Assembly (NCBI GenBank): GCA_007131925.1
Contig: SLPQ01000002.1
Location: 1-36,733, forward strand
Reading direction: 5' to 3'
DNA from: Candidatus Brocadiia bacterium
Lineage (GTDB): Bacteria > Planctomycetota > DG-23 > SLPQ01
Length of the DNA stretch: 36,733 bases
Under the pieces are notes generated by a model, which had not been told where the DNA came from, did no database searches, and worked only from the letters and a program-made list of their open reading frames with translations. Positions within the stretch are counted from its first letter, which is position 1. Each line of letters opens with the position of its first letter. Position numbers and translations under genes: made by a program. Positions 28,715 through 35,033 of this stretch are shown here, in pieces.

Positions 28715-29902
28715 CTACTCGGTCGTCATGCCGATGATCGTGACATCATCTTCAACCGCGCCCTCTCCGTCTGCGCCGAAGACCACCTTGCTCACGCGGT
28801 TGATAACCTCTTCTACGGGCAGGCTGTAGTAGTCGAGGCATGCCCGCACAAACGCTTCCTGGCCTGTAGAGCCGTCGCTCCAGCGCGCTGCGTCCACCCC
28901 GTCGGAAAAGAGAACAAGCTTGTCTCCATGCTCAAGCGTGACCCTTTCAGACTCAAAGGTCTCCTCCACTATTCCCAGCAGCGCACCCTCCGCCTCGAGG
29001 CTCGCCGATGAACCATCCTTTCGTATCAGGATGGGGTAGGGGTGACCTCCCCTGGCGTATTCCAGTGAGCGGGTGGCGGTGTCATATATGCAATAGCATA
29101 TTGTCACAAAGGGGCTCTCGCTCAAGTCCTCCGAAATCAGGTCGTTGTTCAGGTTTGTAAGGACTTCGTGAGCCGGAATGATACGATAGTCGTTGCCGGA
29201 TATTTCCTTGGTGCGTATGCCCTTCTTGATGAAGACCGTCAGCAGTGCCGCGGGCACGCCGTGGCCGATGGCATCGACGATATAAAAGCCTACATGCGTC
29301 TCATCGAGGCGGAAAATGTCATAAAAATCCCCCGCGACTCGTCCGGAAGAGACAAATTTGGTCGCGAAGTACACACCAGGTATCTGCGGCAGAGACTGAG
29401 GCAAAAGCGAGGTTTGAAGTTTCTGTGCCAGGCGCAGCTCGCTGTCAAGGCGCGCATAAGCCTCTTCGAGGCGCTCATTGATGTGGGATATTTCGCTGTT
29501 GCGCTGCTCGAGCGAGTCATGGAGTTTCTTGATGCGAAGGAGCGACTTTGCGCGAGCCGAAAGCTCGATCGGGCTTATTGGCTTCGTAAGATAGTCATCC
29601 GCGCCATACTCGATGGCGCGCGTCCGCGTGCGGGGGTCATGCTGCACAGTGGAAATGATCACCGGCAGGAAGTGAAAGCCGTTTTCGTTCTTTATCCGCC
29701 GCGCTATCTCCAGTCCGTCGACTCCGGGAAGGTGCGAGTCTACGATGACGAGGTCCGGCGCCAGCCTTCCTATCAGGTCGATGCACTGCCTGCCGTCGCG
29801 CGCATAACCGACACGGTATCCCTGGGACTGGAGGACCTCGCCGAGCAGAGTTATACTTTCATGGTCAGCGTCAGCGATGAGAATCTTCTGCGCTTTGTTC
29901 AT
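28715..29902 (-). CDS. Response regulator with RsbU-type PP2C serine phosphatase output
   Basis: A 395-residue two-domain regulator. Residues 1-120 are a CheY-like receiver with D11, D13, phospho-acceptor D55 (VIVDSHLPG) and the TKP lysine near 107. A coiled-coil linker (about 125-165) leads to a SpoIIE/RsbU PP2C domain (about 180-395) with metal-binding motifs VAGDFYDIF, DAIGHGVPAALLT, FSDGVDAA and EDDVTI. Such proteins dephosphorylate anti-sigma-factor antagonists in general stress or partner-switching pathways. No kinase, STAS antagonist or sigma factor is nearby, so the target is unknown. It is monocistronic with its own promoter and faces nrdG. Confidence 0.92.
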   Translation of the reverse strand: MNKAQKILIADADHESITLLGEVLQSQGYRVGYARDGRQCIDLIGRLAPDLVIVDSHLPGVDGLEIARRIKNENGFHFLPVIISTVQHDPRTRTRAIEYGADDYLTKPISPIELSARAKSLLRIKKLHDSLEQRNSEISHINERLEEAYARLDSELRLAQKLQTSLLPQSLPQIPGVYFATKFVSSGRVAGDFYDIFRLDETHVGFYIVDAIGHGVPAALLTVFIKKGIRTKEISGNDYRIIPAHEVLTNLNNDLISEDLSESPFVTICYCIYDTATRSLEYARGGHPYPILIRKDGSSASLEAEGALLGIVEETFESERVTLEHGDKLVLFSDGVDAARWSDGSTGQEAFVRACLDYYSLPVEEVINRVSKVVFGADGEGAVEDDVTIIGMTTE

Positions 29903-30215: not shown

Positions 30216-30524
30216 CTACTGTGGGCCCTCGGCCTGCTGCGGCGCGGAGACATCTATGGCGCCGAAGCGATCCTCGTAGAGCCTGAGCGCCTGGCCCATT
30301 GCGGCGGCCATTCTCTTGAAGTTTCTGGGACTGACGATAACCCGGTCATTAAGCGTGGCGGTCTTGGAGTCGCCACTTCGCAGGCCGAAGCTGATGATAA
30401 ACTCCTCATAGCCGGTCGAGACCAGGAAAAAATTCGCGTAATTTGTATCAGCATTCGAGTCGTCGATATTTATCTGCTGCTTTTCGTCCTGGGGCTGCGC
30501 GCCCTCCGGTCTTATCTCTTCCAC
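30216..30524 (-). CDS. DUF3467 domain protein
   Basis: A 102-residue small protein whose central part (about 28-92; ANFFLVSTGYEEFIISFGLR, VIVSPRNFKRMAAAMGQAL, YEDRFGAI) matches the DUF3467 family, which has no established function. The ends are charged and probably disordered; it has no signal peptide, so it is cytoplasmic. The start is GTG with AGGAAGG overlapping the stop of the giant-protein gene, only 16 bases downstream of it, so the two are cotranscribed and end at the terminator 30162-30204. Confidence 0.85.
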   Translation of the reverse strand: MEEIRPEGAQPQDEKQQINIDDSNADTNYANFFLVSTGYEEFIISFGLRSGDSKTATLNDRVIVSPRNFKRMAAAMGQALRLYEDRFGAIDVSAPQQAEGPQ

Positions 30525-30540: not shown

Positions 30541-33500
30541 TTATCTGATAATGCCGATCCTGCCGCCGACCGTCAGCGAGCCGGTGGGGAAGCCGGGATT
30601 CTGGAACTCGTAATCCGGCGGCTGCGCGCCCGGCAGGACGCCGCTTCCGGTCTCAAGAAACGAAAGGTTGCCGGCGATGGTTATGTCGCTGAAGATACGC
30701 CCTGTTACTATCCTGCCGACATTGCCGCCGACGTAGATGTTGTCCTCGACGTCACCTGTGATAGAGGCGATATTCATGTTGCCGCCGACGTTTACTGCCG
30801 CCGCAAGGTTGCTGAAGGTGTCTCTGTCGCCGATATCCAGGCGGGCGAGGTTGCCGCCGATGTTGAAGACGTCGCCCAGCTCTCCTGCGTCTCCTGTCAC
30901 GCTGAGACGGATGAGGTTGCCGCCGACATCGAGAGAGCCGGGGAAGGCCCCTGTGGCGGTTATCAGGCCTGCGTGACCGCCTACGGAGATGTCCGAGAGG
31001 AGGTCGCCGACGGTATTACGGCTGCCGGCGATTACGCGGCCGAGGCGTCCGCCGACACTGATTGTGCCGTCCTCATTGCCGACATCGCCGTTTCGTGCGT
31101 TTATGAGGGACAGGTTAGTAAGTACATCTATGTCGCTGGTTATAGAGCCGTCCCTCGAGACAAGCGATCCGACCATGCCGAAGCCCTCGACCGGCATAGG
31201 AGCGCCTGCAGCCCGCGCATAGCCGACTGTTATCGGCCCCGAGATGTCATCGCCCGCCCTCACGACATTGAGACGCGACCTGAGTGTCACCTCGCCTGCG
31301 ACGCTGCTGCCAGCGTGGACTCCGCCCGAAGAGATAGTGCTGCTGATGGCGTCGGGAGCTCGGACAACTCCGATAGTGGATATTGTGTTGACGTCCCCGT
31401 TGACATTGTCTGCATGGACACTTCCGGCGTTGAGGTTGCCGGTGATCGAGCCTCCCATGGAGACGACAGCGTTCAGAAATGCCCTGATATCGGTATCTCC
31501 ATCCATGGTGCCCGCGGCGCTGAGTGCGCCTACGCTTACATCGCCAGTGACGCTGCCGCCGGCCCTGATCGCCGCGAGCCGGGCATTGATATTGACATCG
31601 CCCATGATGTTGCCGGCAAGAGGCCCGCTCGGCGTTGCGCTGACGCTGCCGACGTTTATGTCGCCCATGACGCCGCCTCCGGCAACGATCGTGCCGACCC
31701 ACGCGCGTACATCGAGGTTGACCGGTATGTCGCCAGCCCAGTCAACGCTTCCAACATTGACATTGGCGGTGATGTTTCCACCGGCTCTTATCGTGCCCAA
31801 CCTTACGTTCAAGGCCGCGTCGTTCACATTGAGATTTGCATTGTCGTTGTCCATGACGCCGATATTTATCGATCCGGAGATGCTGCCGGCCGCCTGTATG
31901 CGAGCGACATTAGCCATGCGGGTCACAACGCCGGGCGTGCTCAGGTGGCCTGATCCGACGGCCGTGATATCGGTATTGATGATGCTGCCGGTGCGTGACT
32001 GTACGACGCGGATATTCTGCGGGGAGAATATCTCGGAGTTAAGTATATCACCAGTGACCCTGACCTGTCCGATATTGCCGAAGGGGCCGGTCGCCTCGAC
32101 GGTGCTGTCCGAGAGGCTGCCGCCTATGCGCACGAGATTGAGCGGGCCGGCTACCCGCAGGGTACTGTTTGTGACGTCGCTTCGTACGATTATCGTCCTG
32201 ATACCCCCCGCTTGCAGGAAACTGTCCTGTATTGTGTCAAAAGTCGAGATGACGCCTATGGTATCAACGTCGACAACGGTGCCCAGGAGCGCATTTGTGT
32301 GAAGCGCCCTGAGACCCGTGACTGCACTGATAGAGCTGTCGGCTATGACACCATCGGGGGCGGTAGTCCGGACGGTACCGATCGCGGCGGCCGCGCGGAT
32401 ACTGCAGTTCACAATGCCGGTGCCGCCGGCCGACACTGAAGTAATACCGCCGCCGTATCCGCGTATTATCGTGTTAAATATTCCCTCGGCGCCGCCGCTT
32501 GTCATGACCTGGAAGACGGTGATGCCGGCAATATGCGATCCGTCGATGAATCCTCCGGGCCCGTCGGATACAACCCTGCCTATATTGCTGGTATGGACAA
32601 TCACCCCTTCAGCGCGATCGACATATCCGGCGAGGATGTAACTTCGCATGCCGTCCACAATCTCCCCGGTGTCCACATTGACCAGGCCGGAGTTTCCGTC
32701 TATCGCCGCGCCCTTTGAGGCAAGGACGAGGCCCACGCCGTAGCCGGTCTCAGGGTCCGCACCCTGCCCCATAATATCCCCGTGGATATCATTTCCCACG
32801 CCGCTGGCGCTGACGGTGAGTACATGGCCTGCAGAAAAGACGCCCGTACTTGTCCAGACGCCGGGCCGCTCACTATAAACCTGGCTGGGATATCTATTCG
32901 TGAAGTCTTCGACTGTCATGCCCAGACCCTCACCGACACGGACGATGCCTATGACTCCCGCGCCGTCCCAGCCTCCCTCCTGGCTGTCGCGGAAGGTCGC
33001 TCCCGTGCCGGTGGAGATGCGGCCGAAGACACCGTCGCCGATGTCATTGTGCACCTTGCCGAAAAAGCTGCCGGAAGATGTCCGCATCATGACTACATTG
33101 CTGCCCAGCATTATCTCCGACGGGTAGCGGACTATGTGCGGCTCGGCCAGCGGTGAGCCGGTGTTGCGCGCGCCGTTGGCATTGGCCACGACGAGGCCTA
33201 TATTGCCGCCCGGGGTACGCACGTCTCCTACGGCTCCTGTGGTATGGATGACGTAGATATTGCCGCCGGCGAATGCTCCGTAGATGGAGTTGTTGCGCAT
33301 GAGCGTGCGCTCGACACCGTACGGGGAGGGGTCGGCGTCCGGGTCGGTGTTGGAGTCAACCCAGACGACGTCGCCGTCCTGGTAGTGCAGAGGACCGCGC
33401 AGCAGATAGGGGGATATCGTCTCGGTATAGCCGATGCCGCCGCCCCCCGGTGTACCTATGTAGATGATGTCGGCGTCTGCGCCGACGGCGACGATGTCGC

Positions 33501-34944
33501 CGTTATTCGTGAAGTTGAGCACTATGGGCACCGTGCCGGCTACTCCGGGACCGGCGGGGGCATACTCGCCCATTGCGTTCACAAAGTAGATATCGGCCTC
33601 GCCCGGCCCCGCAAAGACGAGGCGCGCATAGCCCTCGAGATCCTGAACGTCATTGGCACTCGTAATCTCAAGCTCTTCGATGCTCTGCGGCCCCTCAGGG
33701 TCGTCAAAGTCGCTGGCAAGGCCTTCTGCGAAGGTGAACTCGCCACTGGAGCGCAGCTCCCCGACCTCGACGCTGCCCGTTACGGCAAAGGTGTTGGAGT
33801 AAGTGGTCGCAAGCCGCGTGACAATCACGCCCGGCTGAGCTCCCCGTGCCACCGGCAGAAATCTGAAGGTGGTCTGGCCCTCATACGTGACGATGGTCCC
33901 ATCGTCGAGTCTGAAGTCCGTATCCTGGGGATGGATGACGAGCACGCCGCCCGAATCGTCAACGAGAGTGCGCTCCATAAGCGGCGTCTCGCTTGTTACC
34001 GTGAACTCGCTGGGATAGAAGATCGTGCCCTCGACCCTTAGAAAGCGCACGTTGCCGCCAGGCCCGGCATAAATCGAGGGTATGCCGTCGGCGAGCCTGA
34101 AACCCATCGAGCCGTCATAGAGCGAACCGGCTCTTACCTCTACAAGATCGATAATGCCAGGAGGGCCGGCAGAGTTGGCGTTTGCCCGTATGGTCGTCGC
34201 CCCTGCTATGACTCCGCCGAATATTCCCGTACTCTCAACGCTTGAGCCAAGATCTGTAAGGCCTACACCCACCCGGAGTGCCCCGATATTGCCATTGGCG
34301 GCTATTGTCACAGGGGAGGTGGTGATCCAGTTTCCATCATCATTGAGAAATGCACCAACCGTGGAGCCGACATGCACCTCATATATATCCTCCGTGGCGA
34401 AGACGCTGCCACCGAGGATCCCGACGTCGAGCCTTCCCAGGTTGCCGTTTACAGTGATGGTCGCCGGCACTCCGCCGCCGTACATGCCGCCGATGGTGAT
34501 ACTGCCCATATCGCCATCCACAAAGATATCGCCCTGCACCCATATTGTGCCGACCTCGACAAGCCAGGGCACCTCATCCTGGTCGGGTGTGTCGTCCAAC
34601 GGCATGTCGAGGATAAAAAGCGCCGACTCTTCGGTGCTGCCGGTGATAGTGATGTTTCCGATGTGAAAGCGGTCGAGATCCTCACCGCCAGCCGTATTCT
34701 GTATATGGGCCTGGCCGGGGCCTAAGTAGAAGATCCAGTACGAGTCCGCATCTTCAAAGTCATCTTCCGGGTCGACCGGTATGCCCCATCCGTTTCTGAC
34801 GTCATCCTCGTTATCGTCGACATCGCCGATTATCCATGTAGCGGGGTCCGCCGTGATGATAACCGGTGCGATGCGCTCCTCGAGCTCCTCAATGTACAAC
34901 GTCCTGCGGTCTGGCTGAGAAATGCGTGCGGACTGAACGGTCAT
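30541..34944 (-). CDS. Giant Gly/Val-rich repetitive protein with LEERIAP N-terminal motif (predicted beta-solenoid)
   Basis: A 1467-residue protein of unknown function. Residues 21-27 (LEERIAP, within RTLYIEELEERIAP) resemble the short LEPR/LEERxxP tag at the N-terminus of many Planctomycetota surface proteins, yet no hydrophobic signal peptide exists. An acidic stretch follows (about 43-68). The rest is rich in G, V, I, D, N and T with nearly no cysteine (NCSIRA holds the only one I found) and repeats of the type IxAGGsItGdInVGSV and VGGNlxrLxvtGD, which suggest stacked beta-helix coils. It ends abruptly in GGRIGIIR with no anchor, PEP-CTERM or autotransporter barrel. ATG 34944 has AAGGGGG seven bases upstream; a longer frame from 35025 would begin at the predicted transcription start. 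It is cotranscribed with the DUF3467 gene. Confidence 0.85.
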   Translation of the reverse strand: MTVQSARISQPDRRTLYIEELEERIAPVIITADPATWIIGDVDDNEDDVRNGWGIPVDPEDDFEDADSYWIFYLGPGQAHIQNTAGGEDLDRFHIGNITITGSTEESALFILDMPLDDTPDQDEVPWLVEVGTIWVQGDIFVDGDMGSITIGGMYGGGVPATITVNGNLGRLDVGILGGSVFATEDIYEVHVGSTVGAFLNDDGNWITTSPVTIAANGNIGALRVGVGLTDLGSSVESTGIFGGVIAGATTIRANANSAGPPGIIDLVEVRAGSLYDGSMGFRLADGIPSIYAGPGGNVRFLRVEGTIFYPSEFTVTSETPLMERTLVDDSGGVLVIHPQDTDFRLDDGTIVTYEGQTTFRFLPVARGAQPGVIVTRLATTYSNTFAVTGSVEVGELRSSGEFTFAEGLASDFDDPEGPQSIEELEITSANDVQDLEGYARLVFAGPGEADIYFVNAMGEYAPAGPGVAGTVPIVLNFTNNGDIVAVGADADIIYIGTPGGGGIGYTETISPYLLRGPLHYQDGDVVWVDSNTDPDADPSPYGVERTLMRNNSIYGAFAGGNIYVIHTTGAVGDVRTPGGNIGLVVANANGARNTGSPLAEPHIVRYPSEIMLGSNVVMMRTSSGSFFGKVHNDIGDGVFGRISTGTGATFRDSQEGGWDGAGVIGIVRVGEGLGMTVEDFTNRYPSQVYSERPGVWTSTGVFSAGHVLTVSASGVGNDIHGDIMGQGADPETGYGVGLVLASKGAAIDGNSGLVNVDTGEIVDGMRSYILAGYVDRAEGVIVHTSNIGRVVSDGPGGFIDGSHIAGITVFQVMTSGGAEGIFNTIIRGYGGGITSVSAGGTGIVNCSIRAAAAIGTVRTTAPDGVIADSSISAVTGLRALHTNALLGTVVDVDTIGVISTFDTIQDSFLQAGGIRTIIVRSDVTNSTLRVAGPLNLVRIGGSLSDSTVEATGPFGNIGQVRVTGDILNSEIFSPQNIRVVQSRTGSIINTDITAVGSGHLSTPGVVTRMANVARIQAAGSISGSINIGVMDNDNANLNVNDAALNVRLGTIRAGGNITANVNVGSVDWAGDIPVNLDVRAWVGTIVAGGGVMGDINVGSVSATPSGPLAGNIMGDVNINARLAAIRAGGSVTGDVSVGALSAAGTMDGDTDIRAFLNAVVSMGGSITGNLNAGSVHADNVNGDVNTISTIGVVRAPDAISSTISSGGVHAGSSVAGEVTLRSRLNVVRAGDDISGPITVGYARAAGAPMPVEGFGMVGSLVSRDGSITSDIDVLTNLSLINARNGDVGNEDGTISVGGRLGRVIAGSRNTVGDLLSDISVGGHAGLITATGAFPGSLDVGGNLIRLSVTGDAGELGDVFNIGGNLARLDIGDRDTFSNLAAAVNVGGNMNIASITGDVEDNIYVGGNVGRIVTGRIFSDITIAGNLSFLETGSGVLPGAQPPDYEFQNPGFPTGSLTVGGRIGIIR
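31215..31900 (-). repeat. Six to seven tandem ~34-residue protein repeats in the giant protein
   Basis: Successive copies begin IQAAGSISGSINIG, IRAGGNITANVNVG, IVAGGGVMGDINVG, IRAGGSVTGDVSVG, SMGGSITGNLNAG, VRAPDAISSTISSG and VRAGDDISGPITVG. The period is mostly 34 residues (34-40), consistent with two ~17-residue beta-helix coils per unit. DNA copies have diverged, so this is an old internal duplication rather than a recent array. A second, shorter VGGNxxRL-type repeat series occupies the C-terminal 200 residues (about 30545-31170). Confidence 0.7.
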
Positions 34945-35033
34945 TACAAGTCCCCCTTGTCTCGAGGAAGCTGCCTTTCGGGCTGCCACGATCGGAATCC
35001 GGACCGAACGCTCCAGGCGAATCAAACATGTAA

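Follow-up and report, generated by a model that had tools for sequence, protein, structure and literature searches.

Daptide precursors share a conserved N-terminal motif, ELExMEAP, and are cleaved directly behind it; in these systems an RRE is fused to a site-2 protease (PMC10036551). For further daptides, cleavage after ELExxxxx has been described (PMC12338566). A second group of short N-terminal tags, the LEPR-type tags, including that covered by the LEPR-XLL model (NF012209, "LEPR-8K"), occurs on very large bacterial proteins and is annotated without a function. Giant adhesin-like proteins are also the cargo of type I secretion (HlyB/HlyD/TolC), which uses HlyD-type adaptors, a TolC channel and a C-terminal signal. 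Leader processing by proteases of the M50 family extends to the YydH/LiaK epipeptide protease (NF058609); to our knowledge, the known YydH/LiaK proteases have no fused HlyD domain. A literature search, with most subscription journals outside its reach, yielded no description of LEERIAP, of the function of LEPR-XLL or DUF3467, or of a system that combines them.

Here we describe a giant protein gene that begins with a LEERIAP tag and lies in the window, the 36,733-nucleotide stretch of contig SLPQ01000002.1 from Candidatus Brocadiia bacterium that was analysed. We propose that the tag is probably a RiPP-style leader that directs giants to an export machine of the RRE/site-2-protease/HlyD type and that it is removed by a cut at Pro27 or close to it. 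The features of the locus are as follows.

30216..30524, minus strand: DUF3467 gene, 102 aa (PF11950, E=1.8e-19), starting 16 bases after the stop of the giant
30541..34944, minus strand: giant tag-bearing protein gene, 1,467 aa; ATG at 34944, stop at 30541; orthologue L039
30544..32667, minus strand: predicted all-beta, solenoid-like region, residues 760-1467 (AlphaFold2; weak 34-residue periodicity)
34864..34944, minus strand: predicted leader, residues 1-27, ending in IEELEERIAP (from the portability of the tag across passengers and genomes and from the daptide register)
34864..34893, minus strand: tag core IEELEERIAP (residues 18-27); the cut is predicted after Pro27, or near Arg24 in the alternative register
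34952..34958, minus strand: ribosome-binding-site-like sequence AAGGGGG, 7 nt upstream of the ATG of the giant

RESULTS

The window ORF encodes a giant protein that lacks a Sec-like signal

The ORF is a real gene, since a full-length orthologue with 44% identity (L039) exists at a syntenic position in another Planctomycetota MAG, AUK274: in both genomes an AgaS-family isomerase gene lies upstream, with one HAD-like gene between. The original prediction described its product as a nearly Cys-free, Gly/Val-rich protein of 1,467 residues, and both the ORF and its composition bear this out (one Cys, C847; Gly, 15.7%; Val, 10.4%; Lys, 0.1%). The C-terminal residue is Arg. Searches of Pfam and NCBIfam with the giant gave no match at E<=1, a PDB search returned no sequence relative, and the tag alone matched nothing in any of the three databases.

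The claim that a signal peptide is absent also held. In a Kyte-Doolittle scan, the first 80 residues contained no hydrophobic segment of the Sec type; the best 15-residue mean at the N terminus was 1.54, compared with 2.2 to 2.6 for HlyD adaptors that have a signal peptide. With regard to the beta-solenoid fold that had been predicted, AlphaFold2 modelled residues 760-1467 as all beta (pLDDT, 87.3; pTM, 0.81), and this region has a weak periodicity of 34 residues; for residues 1-759 (pLDDT, 36), there was no confident prediction. The C-terminal half is confidently predicted to be all beta, consistent with a beta-solenoid, and it is for this half that the proposed fold stands. A Foldseek search of the PDB with the model gave no significant fold match, and viral structure models gave low-TM matches only. 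The lack of a Sec signal or hydrophobic segment near the N terminus would suit a giant that stays in the cytoplasm and whose tag has no sorting role, but the protein is solenoid-like, Lys-poor and nearly Cys-free, and the partner genes described below encode envelope-type proteins, so a cytoplasmic giant deserves hardly any weight.

The tag is found on different passengers

In the giant and L039, all 12 residues of the tag, IEELEERIAPVI, are identical despite synonymous changes in 6 of the 12 codons, and the tag is unchanged where its flanks diverge. Its coding pattern has five matches in the source genome and one in the reversed control, and the tag therefore exceeds chance. Four of the five matches lie at the start of real large ORFs. 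Besides the window giant (C41), three ORFs of the 3.03-Mb genome start with the tag, namely, MTRILHLEELEERIAPTII (C63), MRQRLRVEELEERIAPTII (C181) and MTTTEQQTAPLPRKGEPLRLEELEERIAPTML (C243); the fifth match (C137, L006) does not open a large gene and was discarded as a chance match. By BLASTP, the C63 and C181 proteins are related to each other, and at an E value of 1e-5 neither C41 nor C243 had a direct match to these two or to each other; the orthologue of C41 weakly matched the start of C63.

In other genomes, the tag stands at the start of a 2,929-aa protein from a Sedimentisphaerales MAG (L040/L055) and of large proteins in G053, G073, G023, G255 and G165 (with the variants LEQRVVP, LEDRIVP and LEERVAP). 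It also begins a protein of 107 aa in G160 and, in the distant Planctomycetota genome G187, five tandem peptides of 54 to 74 aa. Judged by these sequence comparisons, the tag is portable and sits on passengers that are in part unrelated. Matches of a first tag profile at E values of 0.01 to 0.1 were mostly noise. Two weak tag matches (G136:C3:45126-45209 and G193:C1:2554404-2554487) contain an in-frame TGA, as do the RRE-M50 frames of G196:C120 and G229:C366; these are perhaps pseudogenes or assembly errors.

An RRE-M50-HlyD fusion is related to the daptide leader protease

The tandem peptides of G187 are followed by a gene (L057:8519-10732) for a 737-aa protein that combines an RRE/PqqD-like N terminus, an M50 site-2 protease and a HlyD adaptor region. 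The five peptide ORFs (L057:7146-8383, plus strand) lie directly before it and have their own starts, the same leader tag and Gly/Pro/Asn-rich tails; they are possible unmodified exported peptides. The homologue of the fusion in the source genome (C253:15688-17808) forms an operon with a HlyD protein and a GAF-HlyD protein. This gene order recurs in G055, G075 and G057, and in G057 a giant LEERIAP gene lies directly upstream of the fusion gene.

In NCBIfam, the protease part is matched best by the model for the daptide biosynthesis intramembrane metalloprotease (NF041824, daptide_HExxH), with E values of 1e-51 to 1e-66. The C253 fusion aligns with positions 18-367 of the 379 in this profile (E=7e-53) and scores 180-182 bits, below the equivalog cutoff of 300 bits; by sequence, it is classed as a homologue of the daptide leader protease and not as a daptide equivalog. 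It has the zinc-protease motifs HExxH and NPxxxDG, and the M50 catalytic motifs are intact in nearly all fusion proteins. The RRE region alone matched PqqD weakly (PF05402, E=0.048), and the best PDB matches of an RRE-region profile, weak at E values of 0.04 to 0.16, were mostly RRE/PqqD proteins (TbiB1, TfuB1 and PqqD); the daptide model NF041824 aligns across this region. The epipeptide protease, which belongs to the same M50 leader-processing family, was a much weaker match (E 1e-10).

The window tag ELEERIAP can be aligned with the daptide motif ELExMEAP with ELE and AP in register, Met(-4) being replaced by Arg and Glu(-3) by Ile. The cut is therefore predicted after Pro27, in a register in which Arg takes the place of the essential Met(-4). 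If LEELE is aligned with LExME instead, the two essential hydrophobic positions match better, and the cut would fall near Arg24. Common to this system and the daptide leader with MpaP/DapP are the ELExxxAP motif and an intramembrane site-2 protease with an RRE or, here, an RRE-like domain at its N terminus, and clustered short precursor-like ORFs, as in daptide systems, are also present in G187. In contrast, the substrate here is a protein of 1,467 aa that has no C-terminal Thr, not a short peptide, and the protease carries a HlyD domain and scores under the equivalog cutoff. Reading of the ORFs in the C253 operon and beside the window giant revealed no recognizable oxidative decarboxylase, aminotransferase or methyltransferase gene.

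DUF3467 links the window to the fusion

The C253 fusion gene is on a different contig from the window giant, so that linkage within the window comes from DUF3467 alone. The window DUF3467 gene is the only one found in the source genome, and in other genomes members of this family lie next to tag giants and RRE-M50-HlyD genes (L109, L166, L165 and L163). Among 48 genomes, it was present in 17 of 25 fusion-positive genomes and in none of the 23 fusion-negative genomes, whose choice had not depended on DUF3467. The occurrence of DUF3467 follows that of the RRE-M50-HlyD system, for which it may be a chaperone or gate. Downstream of the DUF3467 gene and on the same strand, the window contains a response-regulator-SpoIIE phosphatase gene (28715-29902, minus strand).

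Tags and fusion co-occur in Planctomycetota

In a sample of 294 genomes drawn evenly from the phylum, an RRE-M50 query matched 73 genomes, or 67 once six weak M50-only matches were removed. The LEPR-XLL model, which was curated independently of the present analysis, matched 36 genomes, 33 of which have the fusion, compared with 67 of 294 overall (Fisher 1e-21); at E<=0.01, the fusion was present in 25 of 26 matched genomes. In the opposite direction, a detectable LEPR-XLL tag was present in only 33 of the 67 fusion genomes. A profile of the LEERIAP tag itself, built solely from the source genome, matched eight genomes, of which seven have the fusion. Exceptions to the co-occurrence of tag and fusion are G164 and G012; the tag match in G012 was taken as chance, yet it was counted as an exception in the test.

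Phylogeny was controlled roughly, by counting families: the fusion is present in 20 of the 21 families with a tag, compared with 29 of 92 overall, a count to which G023, G053, G165 and G255 were added by hand, most of them after their linkage had been seen. At a distance of no more than 15 kb from a fusion gene, nine LEPR-XLL genes were counted by hand, compared with 1.34 expected (P=1e-5). Tag type also clusters on the protease tree, with 3 changes for the LEERIAP type versus 10.4 in shuffles, species phylogeny not being separated in this comparison. When local linkage was assessed with a loose motif, E.[LM]E.R, it was found in 24 ORFs over 62 loci, versus 7 to 13 in scrambled controls; this excess is modest, and the curated LEPR-XLL model and the plasmid loci described below were therefore used instead. 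In G204 (L109:2919-6410) and G120 (L110:3387-6737), the tagged proteins encoded next to the fusion gene have a WCPHC thioredoxin-like motif near the N terminus, and the one in G204 ends with a metalloprotease-like HELGHVAGLEH.

LEPR-XLL and LEERIAP are both short tags at the N terminus of very large proteins and have the core [LMI]E[EP]R in common; giants of the two types have the same partner genes (RRE-M50-HlyD and DUF3467). LEERIAP differs in that it ends in IAP and not in xLLSADP, and the NF012209 model gave no match to the window giant, to its tag or to its family relatives, nor any in G000, G055 and G075. The resemblance to LEPR-type tags that had been pointed out earlier therefore extends to the partner genes but not to the LEPR-XLL model.

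Proteobacterial plasmids encode related loci

Plasmid records were chosen solely by homology to the C253 fusion protein, and 13 loci were readable, i.e., had a large neighbour that could be read from its start. At 12 of these 13 loci the giant has an LEPR-type N terminus ([LMI]E[PS]R), compared with 3 of 672 internal 110-aa control blocks. The 12 loci are from Pseudosulfitobacter, Thalassospira, Pontibrevibacter, Methylosinus, Azospirillum, Kosakonia, an E. coli plasmid, Cupriavidus, Tistrella, Mesorhizobium, Sinorhizobium and Rhizobium, and only three of their giants are labelled LEPR-XLL in the records; the giant at the remaining readable locus, from Phyllobacterium, has no LEPR-type N terminus. 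The usual order is giant, DUF3467, GAF-HlyD, RRE-M50-HlyD, SecA-like ATPase, HlyD and TolC, with variations. Matches to the fusion were found in 18 Escherichia plasmid records. On an E. coli IncF-type plasmid (L210:2313-22064), an Ig-like giant of 4,459 aa whose N terminus carries ALESRQLFDGA is accompanied by TolC, two HlyD proteins and RRE-M50-HlyD.

Alternatively, the tag could be merely the conserved start of one domain family, such as a helical solenoid cap, its link to the protease reflecting shared genome ancestry. The co-occurrence is indeed partly phylogenetic, and some tagged proteins are paralogues. However, the same tag is found on unrelated passengers and on peptides of 54 to 74 residues, it stays constant while its flanks diverge, and the genes are linked in distant families and on proteobacterial plasmids, all of which makes a mere domain start very improbable.

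Dedicated SecA-like genes adjoin the fusion in many relatives; the proteins examined are 638 to 674 aa long and match SecA_DEAD at E values below 1e-89. SecA-like ATPases of about 640 to 730 aa beside RRE-M50-HlyD (L162:12981-15005, L163:12168-14084, L164:12048-14006, L165:12085-14070, G204:C69, G120:C10 and others) are annotated as SecA, prepilin peptidase or DEAD/DEAH helicase. In the source genome a dedicated SecA was not found.

The source genome has one SecA only, of housekeeping size, and several TolC-like channels, and its C253 cassette has no ABC exporter. These findings would agree with a tag that serves as a recognition and retention signal for RRE-M50, the machine anchoring the giant at the envelope while export proceeds by another route (e.g., SecA/SecYEG or a type I exporter). 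A control genome, Deinobacterium chartae, also favours this reading: it has LEPR-XLL without a daptide-type M50 match, and another reader may therefore exist there. On the other hand, the fusion of HlyD to the protease, together with the TolC and SecA-like genes that adjoin it in relatives, suggests a dedicated conduit, and we regard retention with export by another route as unlikely. HlyD-type adaptors, a TolC channel and giant adhesin-like cargo are shared with type I secretion, but the signal is N-terminal here, and the cassettes examined have no ABC transporter, with a protease and often a SecA-like ATPase in its place; type I export was set aside as the route because the cassettes have no ABC exporter.

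DISCUSSION

The suggestion in the original prediction that the tag directs an export or cell-surface route has gained strong indirect support and, in the RRE-M50-HlyD cassette, a candidate machine. The giant may, as was also suggested there, be a fibre, an adhesin or an S-layer-like element. From homology, linkage and co-occurrence we infer recognition of the tag, cleavage of the leader, export and a surface location, as well as the roles of DUF3467 and the SecA-like ATPase. In the RiPP-style leader model that we prefer, the 27 N-terminal residues would act as the leader of a giant that is made without a Sec signal, and the tag core (hydrophobic-E-x-L-E-x-R-I-A-P) would be bound by the PqqD/RRE-like domain of the fusion, a predicted membrane protein that would be an M50 site-2 protease and a HlyD-type periplasmic adaptor simultaneously. 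This machine, joined by a TolC-type channel and, in many relatives, by a dedicated SecA-like ATPase, would carry the giant across the envelope. The protease would meanwhile cut off the leader at Pro27 or beside it, leaving a mature protein that would start near VIITADP. DUF3467, encoded directly behind the giant, may be an accessory protein, perhaps a chaperone. A removable leader that is read and cut by a membrane machine would explain how giants without an ordinary export signal leave the cell.

Taking a wider view, we lean slightly toward LEERIAP, LEPR-XLL and LExR-FDAA being one leader class of an undescribed secretion system that exports and trims giants, the longest of about 12,900 aa, in both Planctomycetota and Proteobacteria. 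Such a system would be built from the RRE-site-2-protease-HlyD fusion, HlyD adaptors, TolC, DUF3467 and often a SecA-like motor; RRE/site-2-protease leader processing would be applied to giant proteins, and RiPP leader biology and giant-protein secretion would have a common origin.

If the export role is shown, this would be a new secretion system. LEPR-type tags, if the proposal is right, would gain a reader, a protease and a conduit, and the maturation of peptide natural products would be linked to the export of surface proteins, with a predicted cut site for mass spectrometry. The combination of RRE-M50-HlyD and DUF3467 would then also provide a genome-mining handle for giant exported proteins that are missed by signal-peptide predictors.
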